DNA of 50,863 nucleotides. Source: a virus. The DNA is taken from positions 1 through 50,863 of IMG/VR virus record IMGVR_UViG_3300048554_001104; one strand, given 5' to 3'. The notes under the pieces are model-generated. The model was not told where the DNA came from, searched no databases, and saw only the letters and a program-made list of their open reading frames with translations. Within the stretch, counting starts at the first letter, position 1. The number at the start of each line of letters is the position of its first letter. Below, piece by piece: positions 7,048 through 48,185 of this stretch. The position numbers were made by a program, and so were the translations under genes.

Positions 7048-7103
7048 AAACGCAGTTCACCGTATCATTAAGTTTATTCTTAATTCAGCCTATCATTGCG
7101 TTT
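7048..7103. terminator. Inverted repeats between convergent operons, possible weak two-way terminator
   Basis: Between the plus operon (ends 7035) and the minus operon (ends 7102), AAACGCA (7048-7054) pairs with TGCGTTT (7097-7103). Inside is a small hairpin, ATTAAG (7067-7072) with CTTAAT (7079-7084). T- and A-rich runs flank it. The stem is AT-rich and the outer loop long, so termination strength is doubtful. Confidence 0.35.
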
Positions 7104-18300: not shown

Positions 18301-20499
18301 ATCGTAATTTGAAGGGATTAATACTTTCTTTAATTTTAAATGATACGCCCTAGAAGGTAGTTGACTAAAATTTTTACTATCAAATTTTATTTTACATAAA
18401 GCGCTATGAGGGTAGCTTAATTTAATTGAGGATCTTTCTTGTACATCAGAAACTTGCAAAAGCCTTTGTTTTCCTATTCCTCCTACAGAATCCAATCGAC
18501 TTTTATTGTCTTCATCGTCAGTAGAATCATATTGCCCCCCACCTGTTTTAAGCGCAGGGTCATATTCTGAGCTTAATTTCACAACAGTTATAATTGTAGA
18601 CCCCTGCATCGCATTATAATTTTCTTCTGGATCAAATTCTATTTCAATATCAAATTTATAAGGAGATGAAGCAATACCCTCTATTATAAAGAAATTATCT
18701 CTCGAGATACTTAATCCTACATTAGAAGAGTCGCCATTTCCTTGGTCTGGCAATGATTTCACCCATGGATTAAAAACGCTACCAAGACTTAGAAGGTCAT
18801 CTCTAGAAAGATCATCCGCAAGCTTAGCAAACGGGCCTCTCGAACTTAATGAGGATTCTTTTTTCATATCGACCAAGCCATCAACCTCTTCGGTATTTTT
18901 CCATTTTAAATAAATGTCCAATTCTTCATTAGTTATCGGACTGCCGTTTACATAAGCAAGGCCTGCTCTAATTCGACCTTCAGGTGTGTTGAGTCGATTT
19001 GATTTAGAGAAACCTTTTCCTAAAGAAATTTTCGACGATTTAGCTGAAGAATTTATATAATTAGCGACTTTCACATAAGTATTTTTTTCCTCTGCAAATT
19101 CCGCAGCCCTTTGCGATTCTTCTATTCGTTCAATTTCTTGTTGTTTTCTCATCTCAGCATAATTTAATTCAACAATATCTCCCTCCTTGTCATAAAATTT
19201 TAGACTTATAACTCCCGATGAAAGATCTAATATATTAACAGGGCTTCCTTTTTTAGATATATAAACAGAGAATCTGCAAGAATTTCTTAAAGTATTACCT
19301 TGATCGTCGCTTTGAGAAAGCTGCACGGCCATAGTGATAATGCATTTATTTATAAATTGATTTCTTATTGCGTGAGTAAATTTTTTAGCTCCATTATTTA
19401 CAGCGTCTTGAGCGAAAGTGTATTCTGATTTTTTCTCACCATTATCATATGGACTTGCACCATAAAGAAGAGTGTCATATTCGATTACATATGACACCTC
19501 ATCAGTCATTATTTTATACTCATAATCATTGCCGTAAGATATTTCTGGCATTTCTTCCTCTTCATTAAGAACGAAATTAAAGCTGCCTTCCTCAAGGGAG
19601 CTTGTAGCAATTGTTTTTCTTCCAAATCCCTTCCTTTTTTTTCTTGTAGATGTAGTAAAAGTTGATGGATTTTTTACAGGCACTCCATTAAGAAAAATTC
19701 CTTCGCGAATATCATTCCCACTTATAGCTCCTCCAGCTTGACTCACAAACCCTTCAATAGGGCCTTCGGATAATAAATCTATATATTCTACATTAGTATA
19801 AGACTCCAAAGACAGATCGCTTTTGCTATTCGATTTAAGAATATGCGTACTTTTTTTTGCATCTATAGTAGTAGACCCAACTTGTAGCCTCCCATAACCT
19901 AAAGGAACAGGAATACCTTGAGCCGTTTTATTCTGAGAGGATGAAAGCAAATATGATTTTGTTGAAATTTGCTTTCCTGGTTTAGGTGGCTCAGGGGGCT
20001 TAAATAGAGCTTGCATCACAAAACTGATTGCAACACTTACTGCGATAGCTTTTATAAATCCTGCCGCAGTAAAACCTCCTGCTGCTCCTGCTCCTGCACC
20101 AAGACCCATCGCAGAACCTAAAGTGCCAAGACCAGTCATTAATGCGGAGCCGATTCCAACTGCAGCAGTAGCAACGGCTGATGCAAATCCTACAATAGCG
20201 CTTACTACAAATCCTCCTTGAATTGCGCAAACTAAATGAATCTCTTTATTTTTGTATTTCATTTCAAAATCTTTGGGCAAAACAACATCTTCAGGGGATA
20301 TACTTTCCTTATTTTTAGGCTCGTACTTTGAGAGCATAATATACTCAGTTCCTTCCGACTTTAATTTATACATATGCTCAAAAAACCCGTCCAGATTACA
20401 TTCTAGAGCCCACATAAGCTCAGGGATAGTTTTTGCGTCAACCTCTAATTTATGCACAAACTTCTTACCTAAATCTCCATGTAAATAAACCGTCTTCAT
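15313..20499 (-). CDS. Tail tip protein, lambda gpI-gpJ fusion
   Basis: Residues 1 to about 95 (KTVYLHGDLGKKF, then a small beta-grasp) match the N-terminus of lambda tail assembly protein I, and a Gly/Ala-rich hydrophobic stretch to about 170 matches its C-terminus. From about 180 it is J-like: TAQGIPVPLGYGRLQVGS, EYIDLLSEGPIEGF, then the long J core, with NPAWIFYDLVQNPRYGLG and, near the end, VLSVKEVEDRKFEV. So I and J, separate in lambda, are one 1728-residue protein that forms the tail-tip hub and needle exit. A Trp-rich insert sits near residues 1412-1464. It stops at PEPPENL, where the fibronectin-III part of J would begin; that part is in the next gene. A candidate late promoter and an AAGG 7 nt upstream mark the start. 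Confidence 0.85.
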   Translation of the reverse strand: MKTVYLHGDLGKKFVHKLEVDAKTIPELMWALECNLDGFFEHMYKLKSEGTEYIMLSKYEPKNKESISPEDVVLPKDFEMKYKNKEIHLVCAIQGGFVVSAIVGFASAVATAAVGIGSALMTGLGTLGSAMGLGAGAGAAGGFTAAGFIKAIAVSVAISFVMQALFKPPEPPKPGKQISTKSYLLSSSQNKTAQGIPVPLGYGRLQVGSTTIDAKKSTHILKSNSKSDLSLESYTNVEYIDLLSEGPIEGFVSQAGGAISGNDIREGIFLNGVPVKNPSTFTTSTRKKRKGFGRKTIATSSLEEGSFNFVLNEEEEMPEISYGNDYEYKIMTDEVSYVIEYDTLLYGASPYDNGEKKSEYTFAQDAVNNGAKKFTHAIRNQFINKCIITMAVQLSQSDDQGNTLRNSCRFSVYISKKGSPVNILDLSSGVISLKFYDKEGDIVELNYAEMRKQQEIERIEESQRAAEFAEEKNTYVKVANYINSSAKSSKISLGKGFSKSNRLNTPEGRIRAGLAYVNGSPITNEELDIYLKWKNTEEVDGLVDMKKESSLSSRGPFAKLADDLSRDDLLSLGSVFNPWVKSLPDQGNGDSSNVGLSISRDNFFIIEGIASSPYKFDIEIEFDPEENYNAMQGSTIITVVKLSSEYDPALKTGGGQYDSTDDEDNKSRLDSVGGIGKQRLLQVSDVQERSSIKLSYPHSALCKIKFDSKNFSQLPSRAYHLKLKKVLIPSNYDPISRKYKGPWNGFFKGQTIDGSSVNDISDEFRYWTDNPAWIFYDLVQNPRYGLGKYGLEEYNIDKWQLYKAAKYCDELVETRHPPETLTFSPRSCVTNNNISNQEGDGEEGSFEISFHQNGFYNSNGSDVEYTSYSEGEFRKDFGEGVEFQGLKVAIFMYQHNFSESTMQQTNARQLVRKNSCVRRGEIVIEERVLKESNPAKKSITVFGPSLEEIPSTFSINGKRRTLGAACLQKNYPVIEPRFTCSTYLHERGEALTVMNNLASVFRGIIGYDFGKILTIQDSQKDPIILFNNSNIDRETGFMYSGMDKNKKFTSCLVRFNNKNKNYKPDLVYEEDSAAMRVYGYQENEVMGLGITSETQARRLARWVLYSSQLENEKISFTTSEEGSYLYPGAIFEVSDENRAGKNMSGRVLDISSFEGESPYILIDKSAKDFVSINKVEFSVNVGLPFLTDKIIDGRASSHKSSEDQDAEIESYNTPQFIKFQASIGVNENINKFGPQGQKTILSNLMVKVPFSVDLNKNVIKAYNHNLENGDRVRFISSGLLPAGLDKLRVGSSSYFVVNAGLHTFQVALTLNGDHINISDRGRDQFSNTGGLHYFAVESQSFTQRYIDQIEIGASYSLQGIFGSEITEQATHNPNDLENYFIFTSEIETNWYESLMFGTVNIPSDNGFIFSASLGWIYVGSMNYSRNDDNEFFWFWSAEFGWVSTTNNLYNQYWWSSNDQKWIYVKFLQTGSNFSPLMFFVFQENHNYSKNDIYSIPDGGDFSILHAAASSGFWITSKANMGSSQIQQFLGVTPSEVEAELTLQDVQRNPAYHSAVISDWEKVSSLNNDVTNMDALRIKFESGHGLDFFKNNKITIRDFDSSSSNLDDNVINKTWNIIFISNDEIELIDSHNAYLIFDVTINDKGSVEYIESIQNRLFRSFESQLFRVLSVKEVEDRKFEVNGMEYNDSKFDSVDKNLSIKMPALPIPPQADMSLPEPPENLVLTDLTI

Positions 20500-20831: not shown

Positions 20832-21904
20832 CCCTCAATTGGAAATCTTTCTGTGCCAGGAAAACCTCCAAACGGAAGAGAATTATTTTTTGATTTATTG
20901 TATTCTTGTAATTCTTTGCCAAACCTTAGTTGACAAGCATCTAAAGTCTTACGGCATTCGTCTTTTATCCAGTAATCGTTATCAATAAAAGGGTGATGCT
21001 CTTTAGCGATTTCGTGTGCTTGAACACATACAAAAACATTAGGGGTTGTCCTGTAAGGGTTATTAGAGCCTTTTCCTATAATTTTTACTATATCTCCCAA
21101 GGAATAGCCATTTATATTTTGTGGGTTACCATTTTTGCCATATCGATTCCACTCGGGAATATCATTAAAACTCAAACTACTATCAATACTTCCTCCCGCT
21201 CCTGCTTTATTTTTGTTTTTAGCAAAACCAGCTATTAAGCTAGTTTCGTCCGAAGCCTCTATAGGAAGTCCTTTGTACCCACAACCTATACTGCACCTAT
21301 ATTTCCAAGTACAATAAGCAGACAAAACAGTTCTTGCAGGAACAAATGCGTTTTCGAGTTCTAAAGCAGAAACTAATTCAAGTTCAATTAAGTTTTTAGC
21401 ATCTAATATTTTTTTATTCACAAAAAATATATCATCAGGAAAATGAGCGTCAGCATCAGGAGAGCCAAAATGATTATCTCCGGCATCATTGGTGTTTCTG
21501 TTGAGATAATTTTCTGCATCCAAAAATCTAGCATAAGTTCTTTTTCTTGAAATTTTACAATTAGCAAAATCCTTATTAGTTTTTAGTATCAAAGAGAAAA
21601 TGCCATCTGGATTAGCGATTTTAAGTCGAGGTCTAGGAAGCTTCCCGTCTCCGGTTTTTTCAAAACCATCTGTTTCTATAGGTAAAGGTTGATACGCTTT
21701 ACCTTGCCAATAAATTGGATTAGCGCCATTAATCATACCGCAAAATCTATATATGGAACTGTCCCCAAAATTAATATCAGCAATATCATTAAAATAAGCA
21801 ACATTTTCTTGCATAATACTAAAATCTATCTCATATAGCTCTATAAGAGCATCAGGAGCTATAGAAAGCATTTGCTTTGATAGATTTGATGTTGATTTAC
21901 TCAT
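20828..21904 (-). CDS. Minor tail protein, lambda gpL-like, with an inserted module
   Basis: The 358-residue protein ends with the gpL signature: AYCTWKYRCSIGCGYKG and, later, CRKTLDACQLRFG, whose cysteines in the lambda family bind a cluster or metal. The N-terminal domain (ALIELYEIDF, then FCGMINGANPIYWQGKAY) also fits. Lambda gpL is about 230 residues. Much of the excess lies between the two Cys groups, including GYSLGDIVKI...VFVCVQAHE...DYWIKD at 20955-21112. That segment resembles a CBM5/12 sugar-binding module. It is part of the tail-tip complex with the M- and K-like proteins and overlaps the upstream gene by 8 nt. Confidence 0.8.
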   Translation of the reverse strand: MSKSTSNLSKQMLSIAPDALIELYEIDFSIMQENVAYFNDIADINFGDSSIYRFCGMINGANPIYWQGKAYQPLPIETDGFEKTGDGKLPRPRLKIANPDGIFSLILKTNKDFANCKISRKRTYARFLDAENYLNRNTNDAGDNHFGSPDADAHFPDDIFFVNKKILDAKNLIELELVSALELENAFVPARTVLSAYCTWKYRCSIGCGYKGLPIEASDETSLIAGFAKNKNKAGAGGSIDSSLSFNDIPEWNRYGKNGNPQNINGYSLGDIVKIIGKGSNNPYRTTPNVFVCVQAHEIAKEHHPFIDNDYWIKDECRKTLDACQLRFGKELQEYNKSKNNSLPFGGFPGTERFPIEG

Positions 21905-24900
21905 TTACTTCTATATATATTTGAATTTGACCTTCTTGTGGACTTAGAAATGTATCACTGTTTATTATAACATTTTGAGAAAAATATCTATTTTGTTTAG
22001 ATAAAACAACCTTATCCGTTTCATAATCACTAGCCGAATGAACTTGATGATAATAATAATTAAATAAGTCAGCGTGGTATTTCACATAAGCTTCGTAATC
22101 ATTTGATCCATTTACTGTAGGCATAAATCTACCTTCGCCATTTCCATTGTTTTGCCAATGATTTTCTCCCCATGAAGCCATGGAAGTTGCGCTTGATTTC
22201 AAAGTTCTTACTAAAATTTCATCATTATTTTGATCCACAAGGAAATCTTCTATATCTAAACTTGAAGGAAGGTAAACTACATAAAGATAACCTCTTTGAC
22301 CAGGCTTTAACTTATTTGTTTTTCTAATAGAAGTAAATATAGAAGATATAAAGTAACTAGATTCAGAATAGTTTGTGGATTGCCCAGCAGTAATTCTCTT
22401 TATATCTCCATTATTTCTTTGAAAATATTCATTCAATTCAACTCCATTTGCATCAACTTCTGTAAAATATTCGCCACCCTCAATCCCATTATCATAACCC
22501 TCTAACCTTATTGTTTTACCGTTAAGGCCAAAAGGTAGGTTATGTGGAAAGGAAGCGTCGTATGAAGGAATTGGATATGTGTAATCTTCTTTAGATAATT
22601 CTTCTTCAACTATAATAGCCGGATTATTTGGCGCATTTCCTAAAATAGAAAAATTAACATCATTTGAATTTGTATCTAGCGATATTGAACTTATATTTAC
22701 GGTTTCTCCTCCAACATTCTCTAAAAACATTTTTTTCCTTAAAACTTTATTTGGGTTTATATTATCGTCGCCTAATTTAGATGCAAAAATCAAAGGGTTA
22801 GTAAAGTGTAATTCACCCGGCCCAACAATTGGCTGTGTTGAAAAATTAGTTAATGTTTGCGCTTCAAAATTAAATGGATATTGCTCGAAAACTGCGGTTA
22901 TATCATGATTATTTTTATATTTATAAGTATGATCCCAGGATTGGCATACAAAATTTTGCGGAGCTTCATATGGAGCTGGGGGAGAAAATAAAAATGGAAT
23001 ATAACCTAAATGACTTTCTAAAAAATGAAGTATAGCATAAGCCTCTTCGTCGCTTCTATTATTAAATTTTAAATTTAATTTCAGTAAACTTTCATTAATT
23101 CCATCGTTATAGATCTGAGTATACTTAGAACTTAAAGAAACTGTATTCAACCTAGGTTTTTGATTAACATTTAAACCTATAGAAGGTAGCCAAAAAAATT
23201 CTCTAGTCCAATACTCTTTATTAATATCAGCATATTCACCGCTAGCCCTAGTCCATTCAGAATTTTTTATTACTGGATCCTTGCCGGCGACACCTGTTTG
23301 ATTATACCAATAATAATATTGATTATTTATTTCTGAATATGCAATATCATTTTTTTGATAAGTTTCACTACTATCATAGCTAGGAGCTCTTTTAGTGAAC
23401 AATGATTCTCCTTTGTTTAGAATAGAAGTATTTAAATTAGTTAAGCTAAGACTTATATTATTACTATCTTCAAAATTCAATGAATGATTAAAATTTCCGC
23501 AATAAAATGTTTTAGATTGATTACTTAAAGAATCATAAGGATGAAACGTTGAATTTCCATCCCACCTAAATCCAGAAATTCCTTGAGAATATTTTAAATA
23601 ACTTATATTTTTATCTTTTTCTAATTGACCAAGATGATTTTCTACAAAATGAATAATTGCATTAGCCTCTTTATTAGTTCTATTTGCAAATTTTAAATTA
23701 GCTTGAAATTTCAAAGAGTTAGTTGAAACCGGAAACAATTTATAATAACCATTTCCATAATCCATTCTTCTATTTTTTGCTTGAAACTGAACATTAGATC
23801 CGTAATCCGCATCGAAGAAAAACCTATCGGTAACCCAACTATCACTACCATTAGGGTCTTCATTTATTGCGGTTAAAATAATTTCATGAGAGCCAGCTTC
23901 TTCAAAAGAATTAATAGTTATTTGATCAGTTAAACCTTGAACCTGAATTCTATCATATTTACCATCCCCTGCGCGGACAGTTTCATCAAGATTAGGAAGG
24001 CTTTTTGGAGACTGATTTTGAGTAGAGTCTGCGCGTATTTGATAATTCTTATCTATAATATAATATTTTTGATCATTATAATTATAAAACGCTCCATGCA
24101 CTGTTTTAACTTGTGGTAGTTTATAACAATATATCCAACTATCACTACCCAAAACGTCAAAGACCTCATCTTGTTCAAAATCGTCTTGCCCTAATATATA
24201 AAAAAAGCTACTTCCTCTCCTTCTATATTGGCCATTTTCAGGAATTGTATTATATTCATCCCTTGAAATCCTTAAGTTTTCCCACGAGTCAAGGAAATTA
24301 TCTTGATCATCTCTCATATTCTCCCCGTTTTTGTCTTGAAACAATACTTCGGTTAAACCTGTAAGATCATGTAAATCACTCGCGCTTGAAACAGCATAAA
24401 AATAAGAACTGTCAATTTTTAAAAAACCATTAGATGCAGAGTTTTCGTTACCTATTGAACCTTTATCAGCAAGAATCCAAACTCCGTTACCTTTTCCTAT
24501 ACTAGAATCGCTTCTACTATTATCCTGATTCTTCCAAAACCAAAATTTCTGTAGATAAACCCCATTTTCTTTAACAGGTATAATATATATCCACCCCCAA
24601 AAATAATGACGAATCCACCCATTATTACTTTTAGACATAAAAAATTTACGATTATCAATCTCAGTACTTTCGTCTTTATTTGCAAGCATAAACCAAGACG
24701 ATCTATAACGACCTCTCCCAAGAGCATTAGCATCTAAAGTATCTCTAATTGTGCCATCTGAATTTATATCTAAATCGGTCGCAAAATTTTTATCAATATT
24801 TATAACATTATATAAACCTGAAGCGTCTTGAATCGATCCTTCTAGATTTATAGTTTGTCCTACTTTGATAGAATTGCCTAAAGCATCTGTCTTATTATGA

Positions 24901-25178
24901 TCATCAAGTATATAATGCGAGGTTCGCCCATTTACAGTTGGCCCATCAGGGTCTAAAGAAAATCTATGAGAGCCAGATAAAATAGCTCCACCACCATAGG
25001 ACATATCTTCGGTAGCGTAATAAAATAACCCATCACCAGTATTATATACAAAATCAAATTTTTCATAAGAAGCTCCGGCTTGAAATATTCCCGAATAATT
25101 AGAAGTATGAGTTATTCTTTCATGAGAATACTTCGCAGTTGAACTTTGATTATATGATTCGGGAAAAGGTAGTGTCAT
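21897..25178 (-). CDS. Tail-tip protein with two lambda gpM-like domains
   Basis: The 1093-residue protein contains two related stretches: KFANRTNKEANAIIHFVENH (about 23640-23700) and KFNNRSDEEAYAILHFLESH (about 23020-23080). Each is followed by a beta-rich segment ending in a Phe/Asn-rich strand. This is the core of lambda tail protein M (about 110 residues), so M appears duplicated and enlarged. The N-terminal 500 residues are not M-like and hold a Trp-rich module (near residues 160-235) and CBM-like stretches. The C-terminal part (SISLDTNSNDVNFSILG, then LKPGQRGYLYVVY) looks like an Ig-like beta-sandwich. It probably joins the tape measure end to the tip. It overlaps neighbours by 4 and 8 nt. 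Confidence 0.7.
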   Translation of the reverse strand: MTLPFPESYNQSSTAKYSHERITHTSNYSGIFQAGASYEKFDFVYNTGDGLFYYATEDMSYGGGAILSGSHRFSLDPDGPTVNGRTSHYILDDHNKTDALGNSIKVGQTINLEGSIQDASGLYNVINIDKNFATDLDINSDGTIRDTLDANALGRGRYRSSWFMLANKDESTEIDNRKFFMSKSNNGWIRHYFWGWIYIIPVKENGVYLQKFWFWKNQDNSRSDSSIGKGNGVWILADKGSIGNENSASNGFLKIDSSYFYAVSSASDLHDLTGLTEVLFQDKNGENMRDDQDNFLDSWENLRISRDEYNTIPENGQYRRRGSSFFYILGQDDFEQDEVFDVLGSDSWIYCYKLPQVKTVHGAFYNYNDQKYYIIDKNYQIRADSTQNQSPKSLPNLDETVRAGDGKYDRIQVQGLTDQITINSFEEAGSHEIILTAINEDPNGSDSWVTDRFFFDADYGSNVQFQAKNRRMDYGNGYYKLFPVSTNSLKFQANLKFANRTNKEANAIIHFVENHLGQLEKDKNISYLKYSQGISGFRWDGNSTFHPYDSLSNQSKTFYCGNFNHSLNFEDSNNISLSLTNLNTSILNKGESLFTKRAPSYDSSETYQKNDIAYSEINNQYYYWYNQTGVAGKDPVIKNSEWTRASGEYADINKEYWTREFFWLPSIGLNVNQKPRLNTVSLSSKYTQIYNDGINESLLKLNLKFNNRSDEEAYAILHFLESHLGYIPFLFSPPAPYEAPQNFVCQSWDHTYKYKNNHDITAVFEQYPFNFEAQTLTNFSTQPIVGPGELHFTNPLIFASKLGDDNINPNKVLRKKMFLENVGGETVNISSISLDTNSNDVNFSILGNAPNNPAIIVEEELSKEDYTYPIPSYDASFPHNLPFGLNGKTIRLEGYDNGIEGGEYFTEVDANGVELNEYFQRNNGDIKRITAGQSTNYSESSYFISSIFTSIRKTNKLKPGQRGYLYVVYLPSSLDIEDFLVDQNNDEILVRTLKSSATSMASWGENHWQNNGNGEGRFMPTVNGSNDYEAYVKYHADLFNYYYHQVHSASDYETDKVVLSKQNRYFSQNVIINSDTFLSPQEGQIQIYIEVNE

Positions 25179-26098
25179 TTAATTACCTCCTTGATAGTCA
25201 TAGATCCTTTTGCATAACTACCTTCTGAAACTTGTAGCGATTGAGTATGTATCTTACCAGATGTCGAAAATTTTGCAACTTGCTCTCCAGTTAGTCCATA
25301 TAAATAAGCAGTGATTGTCGAATTATTCAACCCAAAAGGGGTTGAACCATTTTGTTGATCGCCATAAGGATTAAGGTTAGGAATAAGTTCGTTAGATTCA
25401 ATATTCATTTCGCTAGTGATATTTTCTGCGGTAATTCTATATGGAGTTGCTCCCTCTGATCTCGTGTTTACAGAAGTATGTTCGTTATCTCGAATATGGC
25501 TATGAACTTTTCTTGTCACATTTATATTATATTTTAGATTACTAATCTCAAATTGCCTTCCTATTGCGCTTGCTGCGCTAGCCCCACTTATTTTAACATT
25601 ACCAAATGATTGTAATCCGTGAGCAAAATCTACAACAGGTTGAGAAAATCTATCTATAGCTTCTTCATATCTTTTAATTGTTCCATATATATCATAAACT
25701 GCAGTAGCTATTAAATTTTTAAATGGAGCCAAAGTAAAACTAAAGCTTTTTAAAAACATGCCATCAAATTTATACCTTCCAACAATATTATCATCAATAG
25801 GATTGTCTGACATACCAGCTTTAATTTCGAACATTTTTTCTATTGAATTAGGATTCTTATTAATTAAGAAAGTTTCAGCAGATATATAAAAATTTATTTC
25901 TAATTGCCCTTGAAGCATTCCAACCGGATAAAATTCAACAAATTGAGTTGGCGCACCGCATATACTAAGATCTGTTCTGCCGTAAACTTTTTCTTCAGTA
26001 AGTTTTGGAGAAATAGATAAATTTGCACTATTAGCCATAATATTCTTGCCGCCTATTTGAATACGGCTATTTTCAAATCTTAAAAATGGATCACTCAT
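25175..26098 (-). CDS. Tail-tube-like structural protein, paralogue 1
   Basis: The 307-residue protein is beta-rich, without catalytic motifs. It shares with the upstream gene the sequence GRYKFD (GKYKFD there), followed by a strand and a YDIYG/TVYGE end. A similar strand, N/K-x-F/Y-S-x4-VG-x-L-P in the other paralogues, is degenerate here (LAPFKNL). Gene order after the tape measure places it at the distal end of the tube. The family resemblance to tail tube proteins is inferred from shared motifs and position. It overlaps both neighbours, by 4 and 8 nt. Confidence 0.5.
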   Translation of the reverse strand: MSDPFLRFENSRIQIGGKNIMANSANLSISPKLTEEKVYGRTDLSICGAPTQFVEFYPVGMLQGQLEINFYISAETFLINKNPNSIEKMFEIKAGMSDNPIDDNIVGRYKFDGMFLKSFSFTLAPFKNLIATAVYDIYGTIKRYEEAIDRFSQPVVDFAHGLQSFGNVKISGASAASAIGRQFEISNLKYNINVTRKVHSHIRDNEHTSVNTRSEGATPYRITAENITSEMNIESNELIPNLNPYGDQQNGSTPFGLNNSTITAYLYGLTGEQVAKFSTSGKIHTQSLQVSEGSYAKGSMTIKEVIK

Positions 26099-27224
26099 CT
26101 CCGTCTATAGAATTATGTAAAGTATCATAACCTTTATAAGTTAAAGAAATAGACATTTCTCCTTCGATAGAAGAGTTAATTGATTCTCCTATTAATCGAA
26201 CATTATGACCCGTATACGCATTAATCATTTCCTTAGTTTGTCCATCTCGAATTTCTATTGAAACTGTACTTTTCGGCGCAGATTGAATTCTATCTTTTAT
26301 TTCTCTAATTTCATATTCATTAGCGATCATAGTAAAATTTATATCTGTTTCAATTGGGTATTGAGTGTCAACCTGAACAGGCTGAAGGTTAGGTACTGAA
26401 GGTTTTGATCCGGCAACCCAATCCTCTTCCGTTCCTCTAGGTAGTCCATATACTGGGGTTAAATTCAGTGTTCTTGTGAAAGAAAAATCACTAATAGCAT
26501 CAATACTGAAATCGCTAACCGTAACCCTCATGCTTGCTTGATCAGTAAATTGAGTTGGTGGGTGATTATACTGAACTATATCATCATATGAACGTTCAAT
26601 CTTAAACGCTTCCTGACCTAATCGAAGTATTATGCCTCCATCTATTATATCAGTAGGGTGTAGACTATTATATTCTTCTTCGGTTAATTCAATCGATTGA
26701 TTATTATAGGCATAACTAATATTTTCACCAACTGTATTTCCATCTGAATCGGTTAGAAATACTGAAGATGCATTCCAAGGATAATTTGTATGATTTTGAT
26801 CTACAAGAGCGGTAAAGCTTTTTAACACATCTTTGCCAAGTTCGCCGTATACTGTAAAATCAGTTTGTATTTCAGGTAATTGTCCAACCGTACAAGATAC
26901 TGAATATCTATTTAATCTTGCCTGAGTAAAGCCGAAACCTTTAGTTTTGTTACTGTATAAAATTACCCCACTAATTTCGTCTTCATCAAATTTATACTTT
27001 CCTATAGAGTCGGTTTCTAGCATTGGATCTGCGCTGACCATTGTTCTATTTATAGAAAAGTTTCCTTGTAAAGGAGAATCAATTAAAGCATCAATAAAAC
27101 CAACACCAGCTACTCTAACAGGTTTCTCTGCTATACCGTAACTACCATCAACAGACTGAACGCCAGATAATGCGTATCCATTAAGAACAATAGTTTGTTC
27201 ATAATTGGAATAACTACTACTCAT
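26091..27224 (-). CDS. Tail-tube-like structural protein, paralogue 2
   Basis: The 377-residue beta-rich protein has an N-terminal part with NGYALSGVQSV and NFSINR, and the strand RYSVSCTVGQLPEI, which matches NYSIEAAVGGMPTA (gene at 38323) and QYSYNAQVGSLPTA (gene at 39668). It continues with a second domain starting near SDFSIDAISDFSFTR, so it appears to be a two-domain tube-like fold. Its start shares one base with the tape measure stop (TAATG), implying tight translational coupling. It probably forms a distal-tube or tail-end ring, but the exact role cannot be told. Confidence 0.5.
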   Translation of the reverse strand: MSSSYSNYEQTIVLNGYALSGVQSVDGSYGIAEKPVRVAGVGFIDALIDSPLQGNFSINRTMVSADPMLETDSIGKYKFDEDEISGVILYSNKTKGFGFTQARLNRYSVSCTVGQLPEIQTDFTVYGELGKDVLKSFTALVDQNHTNYPWNASSVFLTDSDGNTVGENISYAYNNQSIELTEEEYNSLHPTDIIDGGIILRLGQEAFKIERSYDDIVQYNHPPTQFTDQASMRVTVSDFSIDAISDFSFTRTLNLTPVYGLPRGTEEDWVAGSKPSVPNLQPVQVDTQYPIETDINFTMIANEYEIREIKDRIQSAPKSTVSIEIRDGQTKEMINAYTGHNVRLIGESINSSIEGEMSISLTYKGYDTLHNSIDGDE

Positions 27225-30200
27225 TAACTTAATAGACCCCCAGGCCTTTGTTCTTCGACTATAATACTTAAAACTTGCTGCTTCACTCTTTCTGACAACA
27301 ACTTCATTTTATCCCCTCCTTCTTGAGCGGGAGCTCCTCCATCTTGCTTTTTTTCTTCAGACCCTTTAGCTGTATTTATGGAAATATTAATATTGTTAGT
27401 GTTGCCCCCAGCAGAAGTTCCTTTGCTTTCTGACATTGGAGAAGTTTCTCCACCATCATAAAATTTTCCTGCGTTTATTTTATCCAACATCGGCTTGCCT
27501 AGCTGGCGAGCACTACTTGCTTTAATAACGTATTCTCCTTCACTGAGCATTGCAGGAATTTGGTCGATACCAGATTTGCCAGAGATGTGTCCTCCGCTGG
27601 CGTATTTATTTATTTTTCCCCCAAAATATGGCATTTTTACCATTAAAGCTTCTTTAAGAGATAAATTTTGACTAACAAAAGGGTTTGCTAGATCTGCATC
27701 AGTTATATCTAGAGAGCTCATTTGAGTACCTGAACCTCCCTCGGTCACAGGAACTATATTTGCTCCTCCTCCTTGATCTCCAGATAAAGGAGTTGAATCT
27801 GCTCCTCCCCCTCCAAAATTTATATTTTTTAATCCATAAGTTAGCCCCGCACTTATTACGGTTGATAAAAGAGCTTGTCTTCTAGCTTTCTTTTTCGCTT
27901 TTTTTGCGGCGGCTTCCTGAGCTCGCCTTCTGTCTTCTGCTAAAAGACCTTGCATTTCATCGACATCAGCTTTAAGCCCAACGCTTTTGGCTTGCCCGCT
28001 ATAGAAAAAGCCCGACATTTTTCTGTATTGATGAGCTCGACTACTTAATCTTTCTCTAGCTCCTGCAGCTCGAGCAGAGCCAGGAACTCCTCCTCCTTCA
28101 GCAAACTTAAGTACGCTACCTCCATTGTATTTTCCTTGTGTTCCACCAAATCCACTAAAAATAGAGCCGAGCATTTTAAATGGAGCAGATATAACACTAA
28201 ATAATCCACCAAATAAATTATCAAAAAATCCCGGTTGTGCTGCGCTTTTATTTATATCTTTTCCAGATTTAAGGGCAGCTAATACATCTCCATGAGGAGC
28301 TTTTCCTGCAAAATTCCCTCCAGGACTTTTAATTCCAGGGATTTTTTTCATATCTTTTTTAAAGCTAGCCATTTTTTTGACGTCCACACTTGGCTGAGAC
28401 GGAGCCTTTGGGCCAGAACCAAAAAACGAAGCTAAATCTTGTTTTTTAGTTATTGCAGAAGATGCGCGGGCTTTTTCATATTCTTGCTGATACAATCGCA
28501 TATTCTTTTCGTTATTAAAGAATTTGCGCATTCTTTGTCTCATTGATGGTCTTGAAATTTTACTATATTCTGGTTGTGGAGCAAAAGCGTCAGCAAGACC
28601 CATAGTTCCACCTGCTGGTTGTCCGAAAGCTTCGGCGAGACCCATGGTTCCTCCTCCGCTAGAAAATTTTGGAGTTTTGCCTCTAGCATTTAAACTATGC
28701 ATAAAGTTTGAGCCGTATTTATTTACAGCTCTTCTACTCATTACATATTCTCCATTAGTGACCATTGCAGGAACGCCACCGCCTTTAGAGTATTTTCTCA
28801 CATTACCCCCTTGCGATAAACCCATTGCTCCGACGACTTGATTTGCGGCACTTTGAAGAAAAGCATTTCTTAAAGCCGATAAAAATCCCATAGCCACTCC
28901 TTGAAGTGCATCTCCTAAATCTTTACTTTTATCTAAAGCTGCATCCATGGCGGTCACAAGTCCATCACGAAAATGGGTTGCGGTTATTGTTCCTAATTGG
29001 TAATCTATGGTTTCTGCGTCTTCAAGCATTTTTTTTCCTGCATCCTTAAATGCATTACCGAAAGCTCCTGGTCCAGTCTTATGAGCCCTTGCGGCAGCAA
29101 CTCGCTCTTTTTCTATTTCCAGAAGAGTCTTAGATGAAGAGATTTCTTTTTCTGTTTCTTCTTTTAGTATTTTTTTCTTTTGAGCTATCTCTTCTAACTT
29201 CTTGATTCTTTCATCTTTGTCTTTCAGTAAAGCTTGGTAGTCTTCTATTTCTGACTTAGTCATATCTAACTTAGAACCATAGACTCCCCCTCCCTGATAA
29301 GTTTTTTCGTGAGCTGCTATTTTTTTCTTGTATTCTAAAAACTTTTTTTGCTCAAAAGCTTCCGGACTAGTATTTAGCTTTGCCATTTCATTTTCTTCGT
29401 TTTCTTTAAGTCGTTTTATTTTTTCTTCTAAAGCAAATTCTTTTTCTCTTATAGCAAAAACTTCTCGCTCCTTTTGAGTTTTATATCCCGGACCGGCGGC
29501 TAGAGCTCTTTGAGCTGCGTCAACCTTATTATCAAATCCCCGTATTTTTTGGGTTGATTGCAGAGATCTAGAGTTCATTTCATTAATTCTCTGCATGTCA
29601 GTAAGTGTTTGCTTTCTATTTGAAAGTATTAAATTAACGTTTTTCTCTGCGTCCGCTAAATCTTTGGCGGTATCTCGAGTTTTTTGAGCCACTTCTAAAT
29701 TGTTAATTCTTTTTTGTAGTTCTGTTTCAAGAATTTTTACGACAATTGCCTCCGTGCCCCCCTTCTGAAGTCTTTTCATTTTATCTAAGATCTCTTGAAG
29801 GCTCATCGCGCTTACTCTATCAGTTAGATCTTGATCTTCCATCTCTTCATTTCCTAAAGAAATTTTAAAAGCTGAAGATAGAGATGGGCTATCTTTTATT
29901 TTTTGAAGTAATCCTGTTTTTGTTTGGGCGTCGATTTGTGCTGTAGCTTTTTTGTAAGCCTCAGTAGCTTTATTGATCGCTTCGGTATGCTTATACATAG
30001 TTTTTTGTCTTTCTGTAATAGAGCTACCTATTATTTTTTGCTCAAGCTTTAAAGCTTGGTTTTGCTTTGCATAACTTGCTTGTATTTCTAACTGTTCGAT
30101 TGTAGCAGCTTGCTGAGCAGCAAGCATAGCTTTCTGAAAGTTCAGGGCAAGGATGACACCATCTTTAAGTTTATTATTTGCATCATTTATTTTTTCTTGT

Positions 30201-33200
30201 TCAAGATTATAAGATTCCATACCATTTAGCATTTCTACTCTTAACGATTCTAGGGCAATTTGTTGGTTTTCTGTTTTTGGATCTAATATGCCTTGCTCTC
30301 GAAGCATTTTCTCATATTGAGCGCCAGTCATGGCCTTTTTTTCTTTCGAGAATTTTATTCCATCTTCGCCGACATTTTCAATTTGCGTAAACAACTGTTT
30401 ACCTTCAAGCCGTTTTAAGTATTTACTAATTATGTCCCCTTGACTTTGAGATTTTTCTGTAAACTCCCGTCTCATGTAAGTTGTTCGTTGTTTAGAGCTA
30501 TCTCCATAAATATAACTTTCAAGAGGTCTACCATTAGGTCCGTACTCAAATTTTGGTAGCTTTTTACGCATACTTTCCATTTCAGATGATGACATTTGAG
30601 ACATCGTCTCTCCTATAAATTCTGGGGGTAAAGCTTGAGCTATTTGTTTGCCGACTTCGGACGCACGTTGTTTCTCTGCATCCCTAGCTTCGTTAATAGA
30701 GGACACTAAGCCAGAAAAAGCTCCAACTGTTGCTCCTACTGCTGTCCCTAAAGCTCCAAACATCATGCCCATAGAGGCGCCCATACCTGCCCCAGATAAT
30801 GTTCCTCCTATCGCTTTACCTGTAGTTCCACCAATAGAGTCTTCTAAAAACCCTGCGGCCATAGGAAGCCCCATCATTAAACCCATCTGTCCACCCGTGC
30901 TGCCAAGAGCTCGACCCATGGTTGTATTAGAAAATCTTTCGTTTGCGTTTCTTAATCCTAGAGATCTAGTAGTCCTACCTCTTGCGTTATTGAGTCTATC
31001 AATAGTGGAAATACTTTTTCTTAATCTTTGATTAACTTCTTGTTGAGCACTGCTTCCGAGGTGATAATTACTAGCTATTTTTTGCGCAGATCTATTTAAT
31101 TGATCTAGAGTTCTATTGCCTTGTTTATAAGAATCAATTCTTTTCTTGAGGTGAGCGTTCGCCTGTTTGGCTAAATCATTTGCTTTCTCTTGCTCTATAG
31201 ATCCAAAATCTCCAGGCTTAAATATTGCGTAATTTGGAACATACCCTTTTGCTCCAAATACATCTTTTAATCCGTTTGGTTCGTCACGAGTATTAGTTAC
31301 TCCAAGACCAATTGGATTGCCTTTATTCATTAGAGCTGGATGCGTTCCTACCCTGATTTGAGAAACAGGAACTCCTGCATCTCGTTCTCTTCCTATTGCA
31401 TCAGATAATGGGTTTGCGAAATTAGGAATAAAACCATCAGCGCGACCTGATATATAATTTAATATTTTTTTAGGAATACCTCCAGACTTAGCGGATGCGA
31501 GAGTGTATTTTAGTTCTAAAGCGCGCTTCGTAGGGTTATTTTTATCATTCAAGAATTTTGATAACTCCGATGCGTCAGCTCCTCTAAAATCAAAAGAAGC
31601 TTGTTTATTATCTTCAATCCTATCTCCAATTGCAGTTCTTAGTGAAGTTTCATATAAGTTCCCTAAAGTTCCGGGATCGATATGTTTAACAATATTTTCG
31701 CTAGTAAAATCTGGTTTTTGACCTTTACTTGAACCTTTAAATATATTTTTATGCAATCTTTCTGCGAACCCCCTCAGAGGGTCTTTAACCAAATCTCCTA
31801 TTGTTTTTCGAGCCACACTATCAGACTGACCCTTCCGGATTAAGTTTAAATCTTGCTCTGAAACAGGTGAGATAGCTTTAGTTGGCAATGTGCCTAATAA
31901 TGTTTTCCCTTTTAAATCTTTTACGTTAACTCCAATTTGTTGAGCCAAAGTTTTTTTGGAGTCAGGATTTACTTCTGAAATCGGCGTACTATATCGAATG
32001 TCTATAGGACTTTCTGTTTCTGCGCCAACGCCCAGAATAACTCCTAATTGACTAATTGCTCCAGGATATATTTGATTTAAATCTATTACTGGATTCTTAA
32101 ACCCCTTTTCTTTCTTGAAAGCTTTTCCACCAAGTTTCCCTCCAGCCGCTTTATTAAAAGCGCTCATATTTACTTTGTTTCTTGCTAAGCTTTTATACTT
32201 TCCCTCCATTTCCTTCTCAGAAAAGCCTATTGAATTAAAATTAGGTATATATCCCCCTGCGGCATAAGGATCAAACCCATGCACAGAACCAAACGCTTGC
32301 TGATAATTTTTGCCTGCCTTACTAGATAAAGGAGGCATTATTGCTGGTTGACTTAATCCTGAGAATGTTTTAACTTTTTCTGCGCTATTATAAATAACAG
32401 ATCCTTCGCCAGGCATATTCATTGATCGAATACTTCCTGCGGCATATCCACCACGAGCAGCCTGTTCTCTTTCTGGGTTCGCAAAATTTGGTATATGACC
32501 GTAAGCACGGCCTCTGCGAGGTGTTAGGTTTGCTCCAAAGCCTTTTGAGTATAATGTAGCTGCACTGCTTTTAGCGACAGAGTCGAGCATTTTTGCTTCA
32601 GCTACTTGAGCTCTTAAAAGTCCAAGAATTATTTTTTCTTTTTCTGTTCGAGAAATGTCCGTGCGCAACATTTCTTTGCTTAATTCAGAACTTCTTCCAA
32701 ACAGTCCTACAAGAGATGTTTGAATTACTTTTTGTTTCTGAGCTTCGCTAGTTACTCCAATTAATGAAGTTAAACTTTCTTTAGCGAAGCTTGCCGCTTT
32801 TAAGAATAACTTTCCAAATACAGCAGTGATAACAACTAAACCCGGACCGCTAATTACATTGCCTAAGCCCCTTAGGAATCCATTTGCAAATTTACTTCCA
32901 GTTCCCTCTCCATCCCCTAAAAGTCCAGACAAACCTTCTGCTCCACTTTTAACTATATTTAAAACTTTTTCAATTCCGGGAGCAAGCATTATCTCTCCGA
33001 TTTGAGCAGATACCTGTTTAATTGCCAACCCAGTTTCGGTTGCCATTGCGGCCATGGTATTCCTTAATTGTTCATTTTTCTCTATAGCTTCGTTTGTTGC
33101 TCCTGCAGAAATTTGAGTAGCGTTTGCAAGAATACCATTTTGTTTAGCGGCATCACCAAGAACAGCTTTTAAAACGTTGATTTGAAAAACGCCACCGACT

Positions 33201-34123
33201 GTCTGAGCTATTTGCGCTTTTTGGGCTTCGGATAATGAATCAAAAGTGTTTGCGAGATCAGTTAATATTTTCTTTGCTCCAAGAGTCTTACCTTCGATAT
33301 CTCTAACAGCAATTCCTAAATTCTCTAGTTGATTTAAAGTATCAGTTCTTCCGATACGAGTAAAAATAGTTTTAAAGGAGTTACCAATAACCTTACCGCC
33401 TCGAGCTGTTTGTTGCTGAGCGGCAGTGACTAAGCCAATTAACTCATCAATATTGACTCCAGCTCCTTTAGCTGCTGCACCAGTTCTAGATATAGCGTCA
33501 GCAAAATCTTCTGCGCTAACCGCAAACTTAACATCAACTGCGGCGAATTTACTTACTAATTGAGTAGTATCCTTGATTTGATTACCATAGGTATTCATTG
33601 CGGCAGTTAATGACTTTACTGCCTCCGCAGAATCCATACCTGTTAATCGAGTAAGAATAAGAGCGTCTTTTGTTCTTTTTAAAGATTCTTCTACATTAAG
33701 GCCTTGACGAGCATACTCTGTCGCAGCGTCAGCTGCAACCTTAAATGCTGCACCAGTTTCTTTAGCTACTTTAAATAAACCATCACTAAACGCTTCAAGC
33801 TTTTGAGTGCTCAGGCCCATAACAACATTAATATCCGCCAAAGATTTTTCAACTTCAACCATATTGCGAACCATTCCTTTAAATGCGTCCGCCATACCGT
33901 TGATTATTGCCATCGAAGCGCCGAAAGCTATAATACGAGCATTCGCGGCTTCCATAGACTTACTGAATTCATCAGCAGCCCGCTTCATATTACCTAAAGG
34001 TTGGGTCGCGCCCTTATCGTCAACACTTATTCTAATAGGTTGACGCCGAATTCTGTTTACAGCAGACTGAACCGCTGCCTCAAGAGGTTGTGTATTACCG
34101 TGTACGTCAAGATTTATAGCCAT
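27224..34123 (-). CDS. Tape measure protein (TP901 type) with embedded nuclease-like domain
   Basis: The 2299-residue protein starts with a TP901-type core (MVEVEKSLADINVVMG, ALILTRLTGMDS, GKVIGNSFKTIFTRIGR). Residues about 542-966 are an insert bounded by GHIPNFA (542), GYIPNFN (624), GFIPNFA (897) and GYVPNYA (960). The 631-896 segment carries E825, D845 (SFDF) and E870-L-K872, the spacing of a PD-(D/E)XK nuclease. A Gly/Ala-rich hydrophobic region (about 1050-1110), long coiled coils (about 1290-1600) and two GEYVMSRRAV/GEYVIKASSA motifs follow. The protein sets tail length (about 0.15 nm per residue gives up to 340 nm, less if the insert does not span) and is ejected ahead of the DNA. A candidate late promoter lies upstream. 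Confidence 0.9.
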   Translation of the reverse strand: MAINLDVHGNTQPLEAAVQSAVNRIRRQPIRISVDDKGATQPLGNMKRAADEFSKSMEAANARIIAFGASMAIINGMADAFKGMVRNMVEVEKSLADINVVMGLSTQKLEAFSDGLFKVAKETGAAFKVAADAATEYARQGLNVEESLKRTKDALILTRLTGMDSAEAVKSLTAAMNTYGNQIKDTTQLVSKFAAVDVKFAVSAEDFADAISRTGAAAKGAGVNIDELIGLVTAAQQQTARGGKVIGNSFKTIFTRIGRTDTLNQLENLGIAVRDIEGKTLGAKKILTDLANTFDSLSEAQKAQIAQTVGGVFQINVLKAVLGDAAKQNGILANATQISAGATNEAIEKNEQLRNTMAAMATETGLAIKQVSAQIGEIMLAPGIEKVLNIVKSGAEGLSGLLGDGEGTGSKFANGFLRGLGNVISGPGLVVITAVFGKLFLKAASFAKESLTSLIGVTSEAQKQKVIQTSLVGLFGRSSELSKEMLRTDISRTEKEKIILGLLRAQVAEAKMLDSVAKSSAATLYSKGFGANLTPRRGRAYGHIPNFANPEREQAARGGYAAGSIRSMNMPGEGSVIYNSAEKVKTFSGLSQPAIMPPLSSKAGKNYQQAFGSVHGFDPYAAGGYIPNFNSIGFSEKEMEGKYKSLARNKVNMSAFNKAAGGKLGGKAFKKEKGFKNPVIDLNQIYPGAISQLGVILGVGAETESPIDIRYSTPISEVNPDSKKTLAQQIGVNVKDLKGKTLLGTLPTKAISPVSEQDLNLIRKGQSDSVARKTIGDLVKDPLRGFAERLHKNIFKGSSKGQKPDFTSENIVKHIDPGTLGNLYETSLRTAIGDRIEDNKQASFDFRGADASELSKFLNDKNNPTKRALELKYTLASAKSGGIPKKILNYISGRADGFIPNFANPLSDAIGRERDAGVPVSQIRVGTHPALMNKGNPIGLGVTNTRDEPNGLKDVFGAKGYVPNYAIFKPGDFGSIEQEKANDLAKQANAHLKKRIDSYKQGNRTLDQLNRSAQKIASNYHLGSSAQQEVNQRLRKSISTIDRLNNARGRTTRSLGLRNANERFSNTTMGRALGSTGGQMGLMMGLPMAAGFLEDSIGGTTGKAIGGTLSGAGMGASMGMMFGALGTAVGATVGAFSGLVSSINEARDAEKQRASEVGKQIAQALPPEFIGETMSQMSSSEMESMRKKLPKFEYGPNGRPLESYIYGDSSKQRTTYMRREFTEKSQSQGDIISKYLKRLEGKQLFTQIENVGEDGIKFSKEKKAMTGAQYEKMLREQGILDPKTENQQIALESLRVEMLNGMESYNLEQEKINDANNKLKDGVILALNFQKAMLAAQQAATIEQLEIQASYAKQNQALKLEQKIIGSSITERQKTMYKHTEAINKATEAYKKATAQIDAQTKTGLLQKIKDSPSLSSAFKISLGNEEMEDQDLTDRVSAMSLQEILDKMKRLQKGGTEAIVVKILETELQKRINNLEVAQKTRDTAKDLADAEKNVNLILSNRKQTLTDMQRINEMNSRSLQSTQKIRGFDNKVDAAQRALAAGPGYKTQKEREVFAIREKEFALEEKIKRLKENEENEMAKLNTSPEAFEQKKFLEYKKKIAAHEKTYQGGGVYGSKLDMTKSEIEDYQALLKDKDERIKKLEEIAQKKKILKEETEKEISSSKTLLEIEKERVAAARAHKTGPGAFGNAFKDAGKKMLEDAETIDYQLGTITATHFRDGLVTAMDAALDKSKDLGDALQGVAMGFLSALRNAFLQSAANQVVGAMGLSQGGNVRKYSKGGGVPAMVTNGEYVMSRRAVNKYGSNFMHSLNARGKTPKFSSGGGTMGLAEAFGQPAGGTMGLADAFAPQPEYSKISRPSMRQRMRKFFNNEKNMRLYQQEYEKARASSAITKKQDLASFFGSGPKAPSQPSVDVKKMASFKKDMKKIPGIKSPGGNFAGKAPHGDVLAALKSGKDINKSAAQPGFFDNLFGGLFSVISAPFKMLGSIFSGFGGTQGKYNGGSVLKFAEGGGVPGSARAAGARERLSSRAHQYRKMSGFFYSGQAKSVGLKADVDEMQGLLAEDRRRAQEAAAKKAKKKARRQALLSTVISAGLTYGLKNINFGGGGADSTPLSGDQGGGANIVPVTEGGSGTQMSSLDITDADLANPFVSQNLSLKEALMVKMPYFGGKINKYASGGHISGKSGIDQIPAMLSEGEYVIKASSARQLGKPMLDKINAGKFYDGGETSPMSESKGTSAGGNTNNINISINTAKGSEEKKQDGGAPAQEGGDKMKLLSERVKQQVLSIIVEEQRPGGLLS

Positions 34124-47099: not shown

Positions 47100-47218
47100 T
47101 ACAAACACTAGCGACAGCATATTTTGAATTTTTTCCCGGAGACTGGTTACTATTTGGCTTCATTGGTACCGTAGTATATTTCTTTAAGTCTAAAAAAGAT
47201 GATGATTTTTATGGATAA
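47096..47218 (+). CDS. 40-residue single-pass membrane miniprotein
   Basis: The ATG at 47096 overlaps the stop of the upstream gene (ATGA), and the TAA at 47216-47218 lies just inside the start of the GMP reductase gene. The peptide has a polar N-terminus, a hydrophobic span (DWLLFGFIGTVVYFF) and a Lys/Asp-rich end (KSKKDDDFYG). It looks like a small inner-membrane protein. The double overlap and the missing alternative start argue that it is real. Function unknown; holin-like, toxin-like or a membrane anchor are all possible. Confidence 0.5.
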   Translation: MIQTLATAYFEFFPGDWLLFGFIGTVVYFFKSKKDDDFYG

Positions 47219-48185
47219 AGCATATAAATATTCAGATATTGTACTTATTCCTGAGTACAGTGAATGCTCAAGCAGATCAGAATGCGAGACAGGTGCTGAA
47301 CTTTGTGGTTTCAAATTCAAACTACCAACTATTCCTGCGAATATGCAATCTGTTATTAACATGAGTTTGGCAAAATGGATGAGCGAGAATGATTATTTTT
47401 ATGTGATGCATAGATTTCACAATGATCTCGCGGAAAATATCGCAATCGCAAATAGCGAAAAATGGAATATTATATCTTTTAGCGTTGGAGTTCAAGACTC
47501 AGACAAAGATAAAATCCATAAAGTAAAACAACGAAAGCATAGAATTGATTTTCTAACAATAGATATTGCTCATGGTCATTCAAAAAATATGATTGACATG
47601 ATTGAATTTATTAGAAAAGAACTACCTAGTACAAAAATTATTGCGGGAAATGTAGCTACAAAACAAGCTGTCATTGATTTAGCTACAGCTGGAGCAGATG
47701 TGGTAAAAGTAGGAATAGGTCAAGGCTCTCCCTGTACAACAAAAGATAAAACTGGATTCACACTACCTATGTTCACTTGTGTCAAAACATGCGCTAATGC
47801 TTACATAGGTAAAGATGAAAATAATTTAAAAGAAGTCCCCATTATTGCAGATGGAGGCATAGGATGCAACGGAGATATCACTAAAGCTTTAGTTGCTGGA
47901 GCTAAAATGGTTATGGCGGGAGGACTATTCGCTAGTTGCGTTGATAGTCCCGCAACAATAGTAGAAATTAATGGAGAGTTTCATAAAGCTTATTTCGGTT
48001 CCGCAAGTTATGAAAATAAGAGGCATCGAAATCATATCGAAGGTAAATTAAATAAAATAAAAAATAATGGTATGACATACGAGCAAAAACTTAAAGAAAT
48101 TAAACAAGATTTACAAAGCTCAATCTCTTATGCAGGTGGTCGAGATGTGAGCGTTTTACAAAAAACTAAATATTTATATCAATAA
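47211..48185 (+). CDS. guaC: GMP reductase
   Basis: The 324-residue IMPDH/GMPR-family TIM-barrel has no CBS domains. It shows TIDIAHGHS, IIAGNVAT, GADVVKVGIGQGSPCTT (catalytic Cys175), IIADGGIGCNGDI, MVMAGGLFA, YFGSAS and QDLQSSISYAGG. The last two, with the AHGHS loop, match GMP reductase rather than IMP dehydrogenase. It would convert GMP to IMP with NADPH, moving guanine nucleotides towards adenine, which would suit an AT-rich phage. The third in-frame ATG (47211) is chosen; 47199 and 47202 are less likely, since the family N-terminus begins near KYSDIVL. A promoter for the next gene follows 4 nt after the stop. Confidence 0.88.
   Translation: MDKAYKYSDIVLIPEYSECSSRSECETGAELCGFKFKLPTIPANMQSVINMSLAKWMSENDYFYVMHRFHNDLAENIAIANSEKWNIISFSVGVQDSDKDKIHKVKQRKHRIDFLTIDIAHGHSKNMIDMIEFIRKELPSTKIIAGNVATKQAVIDLATAGADVVKVGIGQGSPCTTKDKTGFTLPMFTCVKTCANAYIGKDENNLKEVPIIADGGIGCNGDITKALVAGAKMVMAGGLFASCVDSPATIVEINGEFHKAYFGSASYENKRHRNHIEGKLNKIKNNGMTYEQKLKEIKQDLQSSISYAGGRDVSVLQKTKYLYQ

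Follow-up and report, generated by a model that had tools for sequence, protein, structure and literature searches.

Exchangeable, motif-bounded cassettes with a PD-(D/E)XK nuclease-like signature in phage tape measure proteins

Comparison of a phage tape measure protein (TMP) with its closest relatives shows, at the level of sequence, that nearly identical phages exchange one internal segment of this protein, here called the cassette, at or near copies of a short motif. The motif copies, of the form G-[FY]-[IV]-P-N-F, mark the borders of the cassette, and recombination is presumably the cause of the exchange. This swappability is the main point of our analysis and was absent from the preliminary description of the same DNA, which had drawn attention to a nuclease-like domain in the TMP. 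The cassette itself is a putative PD-(D/E)XK-like, metal-dependent nuclease in which all catalytic positions are kept. On balance, we favour the reading in which it belongs to a large pool of interchangeable TMP cassettes, most commonly PD-(D/E)XK-like nucleases, that are delivered into the cell.

The tape measure gene and its exchanged cassette

The window, that is, the whole stretch of DNA analysed, corresponds to a virus record 50,863 bases long, which may be a genome fragment. Its second-largest open reading frame (ORF) gave PF10145 (PhageMin_Tail) as the sole significant match in a Pfam scan, and tape measure proteins made up 14 of the 16 families listed in a PHROG search. This giant ORF with a PF10145 core sits among tail genes, which identifies it as a tape measure of the PhageMin_Tail type. 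PF10145 also scored above the cut-off in 25 of 26 chosen records having motifs of the G-[FY]-[IV]-P-N-F type. The features of the gene are as follows.

27224-34123, minus strand: tape measure protein ORF, 2299 amino acids (ORF call; PF10145, E 1.6e-28)
33191-33766, minus strand: PhageMin_Tail (PF10145) core, residues 120-311 (Pfam match)
32483-32500, minus strand: motif 1, GHIPNF, residue 542 (motif scan)
32237-32254, minus strand: motif 2, GYIPNF, residue 624, upstream border of the cassette (motif scan)
31436-32233, minus strand: swapped cassette, residues 631-896 (no blastn match at E <= 1e-10 in the contig G002, flanks align)
31868-32089, minus strand: strand-rich N-terminal part of the cassette, residues 679-752 (AlphaFold2 model; strands 56-58, 70-76, 84-91 and 118-129 in model numbering)
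31463-31813, minus strand: conserved PD-(D/E)XK-like core, residues 771-887 (stretch aligning to the family HMM)
31649-31651, minus strand: E825 codon, in a helix, G821-x-x-[FY]824-E825 (family alignment and model)
31589-31591, minus strand: D845 codon (family alignment)
31508-31516, minus strand: E870-x-K872 codons, E870 at 31514-31516 and K872 at 31508-31510 (family alignment)
31466-31468, minus strand: K886 codon, conserved lysine of the following helix (family alignment and model)
31418-31435, minus strand: motif 3, GFIPNF, residue 897, downstream border of the cassette (motif scan)
31229-31432, minus strand: conserved linker, residues 898-965, 96-97% identical in amino acids to four relatives, ending with motif 4, GYVPNY, residue 960

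Residues 631-896 lie outside the TMP core, because the PF10145 match spans residues 120-311 only, and the preliminary description was right to find this segment unlike the core. Four TMPs from viral contigs span the TMP of the window (L002, L003, L004 and L005; the contigs of L005 and L003 are G001 and G002, respectively). Against L005, residues 1-540 show 99-100% nucleotide identity and residues 541-623 show 93% amino acid identity; the cassette (624-897) falls to 15% of amino acids and 34% of nucleotides, and identity is back right after the motif, at 96% of amino acids over residues 898-965. Across the window and its closest TMPs, cassette versions are 15-28% identical where the flanking TMP is 93-100% identical. 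When the window is compared with these near-identical relatives, the cassette stands out as the sharpest of the variable TMP blocks. L003 and L004 have one cassette in common (98% amino acid and 99% nucleotide identity) and have diverged behind it, to 27-28% amino acid identity over residues 966-1300. The cassettes of all four relatives fall in the HMM family of the window cassette.

The block without a blastn match runs from 31431 to 32229 against G001 and from 31436 to 32233 against G002, with flanks at 93-94% identity; the domain borders originally drawn at 31415-32234 nearly coincide with both. Other sequence without an alignment to G001 or G002 falls within or spans the ORFs at 7102-7719, 7716-15308, 15313-20499, 21897-25178 and 26091-27224; further such blocks occur in the TMP and, against G002, in the repetitive ORF at 44231-46507. 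No separate gene co-varying with the cassette, as a candidate immunity gene would, was seen in the comparison with G002 or with G001, which reaches window position 42434 only.

The TMP holds a second apparent exchange unit at 29080-31230 (residues about 966-1680). Over residues 966-1100, the window is 99% identical in amino acids to L002 and 36-38% identical to L003 and L005, which are 94% identical to each other. Elsewhere in the record, the 2530-residue product of the ORF at 7716-15308 is perhaps a host-recognition protein; it gave weak CBM_5_12 and DUF637 matches below the cut-off, and its ORF is unaligned to G001 and G002 at about 8652-9756. The ORF at 44231-46507 (758 amino acids) contains internal repeats that match G002 in several overlapping ways, so the number or order of repeats differs. 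A glycosyltransferase-like gene (phrog_2170) lies at 3160-5067 and a dehydrogenase-like gene (phrog_9582) at 47199-48185.

A membrane-loop model was considered and dropped, as hydrophobic segments flank the motif array in only about half of the TMPs (before it in 52 of 93 and after it in 52 of 93).

Conserved signature and predicted structure of the cassette

In the PD-(D/E)XK superfamily, a glutamate in a helix is followed by an aspartate, then by [D/E]xK and then by a lysine-bearing helix. The nuclease reading of the cassette had been based on Glu825, Asp845, Glu870 and Lys872, and the codons place these residues at the positions given and confirm spacings of 20 and 25. In an 87-sequence alignment of the cassette family, the seven most informative columns are D845, E825, Y824, G821, [D/E]870, K872 and K886. 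D845 and G821 are each present in 87 of 87 sequences and K872 in 86 of 86. Position 825 holds 82 E and 5 D, position 824 holds 75 F, 7 Y and 5 other residues, and position 870 holds 56 D and 30 E of 86. Position 886 holds 70 K and 4 Q of 74, counted in this alignment since the K886 column is unreliable in the hmmalign table. Outside the signature columns the family is variable, its members being 12-33% identical to the window cassette. With L025 set aside, the spacing in the alignment is 18-29 residues from E to D and 19-37 from D to [D/E]xK. L025 is a remoter member (left-out E 8.7e-5) whose sequence reads D-x9-E-x-K, a short spacing that resembles textbook PD-(D/E)XK enzymes.

Among the matches listed, [E/D]825, D845, [D/E]870 and K872 are retained in all 125 distinct domains (E at 825 in 120; 85 D and 40 E at 870), a count that leans towards conservation because members were both chosen and aligned by HMM. 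Two results are less biased in this direction. The window's own BLAST subfamily carries E, D, E and K in five of five members, so the expectation that close homologues keep the D/E/K residues held. When the window cassette, L051, L014 and L148 were left out of the HMM, and L142, another phmmer match of the window cassette, was retained, the window still scored 47.8 bits (E 1.8e-14). When the family HMM was run against 20 shuffles of each of 205 cassettes, no match with E < 0.01 was obtained, and the layout of the signature is, judged by these counts, beyond chance.

The cassettes are maintained as proteins. dN/dS was below 1 in all 25 computable pairs of the 29 related-cassette pairs examined (range 0.08-0.75), with the caveats that pairs share members and that several have dS above 1. 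The window cassette is in none of these pairs, its relatives being too distant; a pair from its subfamily, L051/L200, gave 0.27.

Using AlphaFold2, we modelled the window cassette (75 relatives; mean pLDDT 79.7, pTM 0.72) and the cassette L233 (104 relatives, the window included; mean pLDDT 85.3, pTM 0.72). In the window model, helix 194-208 contains E825, D845 immediately precedes a strand of two residues, strand 245-249 bears both E870 and K872, and K886 lies in helix 260-268. The L233 model has a similar order: N-terminal strands, a long helix, the E-helix, D, a helix, the [D/E]xK strand and a helix. As modelled, this order fits a PD-(D/E)XK core that carries a helical insertion and is preceded by an N-terminal extension rich in strands, but few of the core strands are predicted.

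The two parts of the original PD-(D/E)XK reading fared differently: the signature motif is strongly supported, and no significant fold match was found in the PDB or BFVD. Foldseek returned nothing with E <= 0.001 from the PDB for either model or from BFVD for the L233 model; the best E values were 1.0 (window, PDB), 1.0 (L233, PDB) and 0.32 (L233, BFVD). The best VIA-align Z scores of the two models, 2.7 and 3.9, fell on helices preceding the motif residues. Searches of 76 family members against Pfam, PHROGs, PADLOC and NCBIfam gave no convincing match, PDB sequences gave none either, and the Mrr_cat profile (PF04471) found nothing in the window. The nearest library match to a nuclease was one PADLOC HamA match with E 0.044.

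Several other library matches were taken as chance. These were scattered single Pfam matches over the 76 members (E 0.003 or worse), six single PADLOC matches at 0.023-0.065 that included HamA, SIR2 and HerA, and plant-type lectins among the PDB sequences (E 0.03 to 0.08).

Spread of the family and other cassette types

A TMP search and two motif scans yielded at least 141 motif-bearing ORFs and at least 217 segments of at least 90 amino acids between successive motifs. Among the matches listed, these gave at least 205 distinct cassettes including that of the window, and an iterated HMM started from the window cassette with its motif ends trimmed recruited 87 of the 205. The nuclease-like type is the commonest among the cassettes found here. 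With a third motif scan added, the set comprised at least 248 sources and at least 4,020 ORFs. A search for the same domain in tape measures of viral contigs, as had been proposed, thus found at least 140 copies (125 distinct; sources overlap), and all 140 lie in ORFs with at least one motif. Of 199 ORFs in which the motif occurs at least twice, at least 130 contain the domain; both this figure and the 140 hits are lower bounds because the whole-ORF search misses some members.

When a 10-member subfamily served as query in a later search, 64 viral loci and two loci in genome bins were obtained. This search was only partly independent, because its patterns included the motif and several of its contigs were already in the set. 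The domain was found again by HMM in 58 of the 66 loci, all 58 in ORFs with a motif and 57 in ORFs with two or more. The two matches in species genomes (L255 and L256) lie in metagenome-assembled Flavobacteriales and Verrucomicrobiales bins, which hint at hosts or are mis-binned phage contigs; one such bin makes marine Flavobacteriia a first guess for the host.

The family came to light solely by searching with the TMP and scanning for the motif. Used by itself as a query, the window cassette found no relative among 15 pattern matches in viral contigs, and a pattern of the motif plus ANP gave 0 stretches in the species-genome collection. In tblastn searches of GenBank phages, neither the window cassette nor two other cassettes had a relative, and the same was true of the linker and of an 867-amino-acid region of L127. 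Whole TMPs matched 202 and 117 GenBank phage records, and in the best 40 of the 202 and the best 25 of the 117 the match covered the N-terminal part only, up to residue 483.

Two side observations concern the make-up of the cassettes. The nuclease-like domain is doubled in successive slots in four TMPs (L058, L128, L129 and L192). A small sub-module resembling 'SDLITKKGEDIYVGGEKFDN' recurs between the nuclease-like core and the closing motif (L051, L200, L012 and L037) and is common to several otherwise different cassettes.

We also asked what occupies the slot, taking as anchors the distinct sequences that follow a cassette (n = 143). After setting aside 16 anchors without an upstream motif in the ORF, 127 were left. 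The family domain is in the slot just before the anchor in 78, in an upstream slot in 23 and, by that count, in none in 26; seven of those 26 ORFs hold a member by the iterated HMM, leaving 19 of 127 without a family member found. At least 90 amino acids separate the two motifs in 125 of the 127 anchors and fewer than 90 in two, in a set gathered largely by motif, from which cassette-less alleles without the motif would escape.

Of the 117 non-family cassettes, 95 remained once redundancy had been reduced, and the 78 that were 125 amino acids or longer were scanned. Four of the 78 matched GNAT acetyltransferases (best 7e-8), one a cytidyltransferase-associated domain (3.2e-8) and one a GHKL ATPase (3.9e-5); P-loop NTPase matches were weak (0.0022 or worse). 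Ten cassettes were scanned individually. GHKL ATPase-, P-loop NTPase- and GNAT-like cassettes, mostly with weak matches, are seen at L069:5024-6769, L067:6520-7029, L129:7308-7856 and L095:241-714. Those at L017:2604-3218 and L024:2554-3240 are kinase-like and zincin-like (HExxH) by motif reading, without significant matches.

Proposed role, alternatives and known systems

It has been proposed that TMPs exit the tail to become the entry channel (PMC10770324), and the function of the tape measure once ejected is an old question. The TMP lies in the tail tube and exits it on infection, and would bring the cassette with it, probably in an unfolded state, to the envelope or cytoplasm. There the cassette may refold and cut nucleic acid, the targets being perhaps the host chromosome, resident rival elements or RNA. 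Delivery into the cell, which the preliminary description had raised, is plausible by analogy with the phage P23-45 and the injection-system effector Tme, and most likely the cassette would act as a cargo enzyme at or inside the membrane, early in infection. As with polymorphic toxins, the diversity of the cassettes could reflect an arms race in which the host side contributes inhibitors or defences; in the window and its four closest TMPs, where the swap stays within one family, such a race over enzymes of different kinds is not evident. More broadly, the TMP may be a kind of cassette magazine, in which enzymes docked between GYIPNF motifs would precede the genome through the tail, regain their fold inside the cell, disable nucleic acid of the host or of rivals, and turn over like receptor-binding proteins; we give this a little less than an even chance. 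Just as tentatively, its users would be a broad group of uncultured tailed phages, and most of its enzymes would belong to a new PD-(D/E)XK-like nuclease family. If true, the TMP would join the carriers of phage-borne effectors, and its cassettes would offer many possible nucleases and other enzymes that currently lack annotation. The role of the cassette can be tested by point mutation, because conserved catalytic-type residues sit in the exchanged segment.

Other readings of the same data have to be weighed. It is rather improbable that the cassette is not a nuclease, E, D, [D/E]xK and K forming a different active or binding site in some other, perhaps new, fold. Two fairly confident models without a structural match speak for this, as does the D to [D/E]xK distance of 19-37 residues with a helix between, which is long for PD-(D/E)XK enzymes, where the usual spacing is shorter. 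However, residues D and E interchange exactly at [D/E]xK, and this, together with the G-x-x-[FY]-E helix and the lysine of the next helix, fits PD-(D/E)XK enzymes. A role in handling the phage's own DNA or in assembly, such as end processing, packaging or DNA release through the TMP channel, likewise has a low probability in our estimate. Packaging had been suggested at the outset, a head completion nuclease of the REase fold is required for T4 packaging (PMC7824862), and the window and its four closest TMPs all have a family member in the slot, as a shared function would need. Such a role would not, however, call for versions so divergent (15-28% identity) beside almost unchanged flanks (93-100%), and the anchor ORFs in which no family member was found (19 of 127) also weigh against it.

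The variability itself could be what is selected, and we regard this as unlikely. The segment would then act as a hypervariable shield that alters how defences recognise the ejected TMP, or helps select the inner-membrane route, with catalysis secondary. The host nuclease SNIPE associates with siphophage TMPs during injection, and one phage, with a TMP that is different at residues 300-400, stood out as an exception in its clade (PMC13190303); the position of the cassette as the sharpest variable TMP block among near-identical relatives would suit such a role. Yet a shield needs no catalytic residues, and it is these that form the most conserved columns of a family whose members are 12-33% identical. 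Least probable, and by our estimate very unlikely, is a selfish, homing-type element, a nuclease sequence that spreads in frame in TMP genes by cutting cassette-less or different alleles. A nuclease signature with sharp exchange borders is what such an element would show, and nuclease genes are said to occupy boundaries of exchange between phages (PMC10448857). But short slots are rare (125 of 127 anchors with at least 90 amino acids between motifs, in the largely motif-gathered set), slots of the same kind are also filled by cassettes outside the family, and the cassette reads through in frame.

As for known systems, the cassette shares with the PD-(D/E)XK superfamily the order of helix E, D, [D/E]xK and lysine helix, and differs from it in the long insert between D and [D/E]xK, the strand-rich N-terminal extension and the absence of convincing matches in sequence or fold. 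It is already known that TMPs can contain enzymes, that virion proteins can bear effectors and that phages exchange modules, the TMP gene among them; motif-bounded nuclease cassettes in phage TMPs were not found among the matches listed in the literature searched, a scope mostly outside subscription papers and preprints. The TMP of P23-45 also has an enzyme domain inside it, a fused virion RNA polymerase for which a role at the entry pore during infection has been proposed. This is, however, a transcription enzyme in the N-terminal portion, and the available text describes no exchangeable cassette (PMC10770324). Tme, a tapemeasure-related effector of a Streptomyces davawensis contractile injection system, resembles our case as a TMP-like protein with a nuclease in a tail-like particle (PMC11126660). 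Its active endonuclease is C-terminal and EndA-like (DRGH and H-N-N) and belongs to a bacterial injection system, whereas the cassette here is internal, PD-(D/E)XK-like and in a phage TMP; motif-bounded exchange is not described in the accessible part of that report.

Polyvalent proteins and MuF-effector fusions are similar in being virion-borne multidomain effector proteins thought to be delivered with phage DNA, but the carriers named in the text available are MuF, portal, P1 Dar/Ddr-type proteins and virion RNAP, without mention of the tape measure (Iyer et al. 2017, PMC5512222). Closer in carrier are the Sle1-type effectors, which are TMP-related and have divergent, exchangeable functional domains, one of which was exchanged experimentally; the Sle1 domain is, in contrast, C-terminal and in a bacterial contractile injection system, and the word 'nuclease' is absent from the main text (PMC13277306). 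Near-identical cryoconite phages swap single-module variants, including three variants of one tape measure gene, but these are whole-gene variants at 78-81% identity, and the text seen describes no internal nuclease cassette or border motif (PMC7468147). Smug et al. (2023), in the available part of their study, could not confirm genuine recent mosaicism in TMPs (PMC10684548); the exchange described here is a clean case of it. In overall design, the arrangement resembles polymorphic toxin systems, in that a putative effector domain is exchangeable on a conserved carrier.
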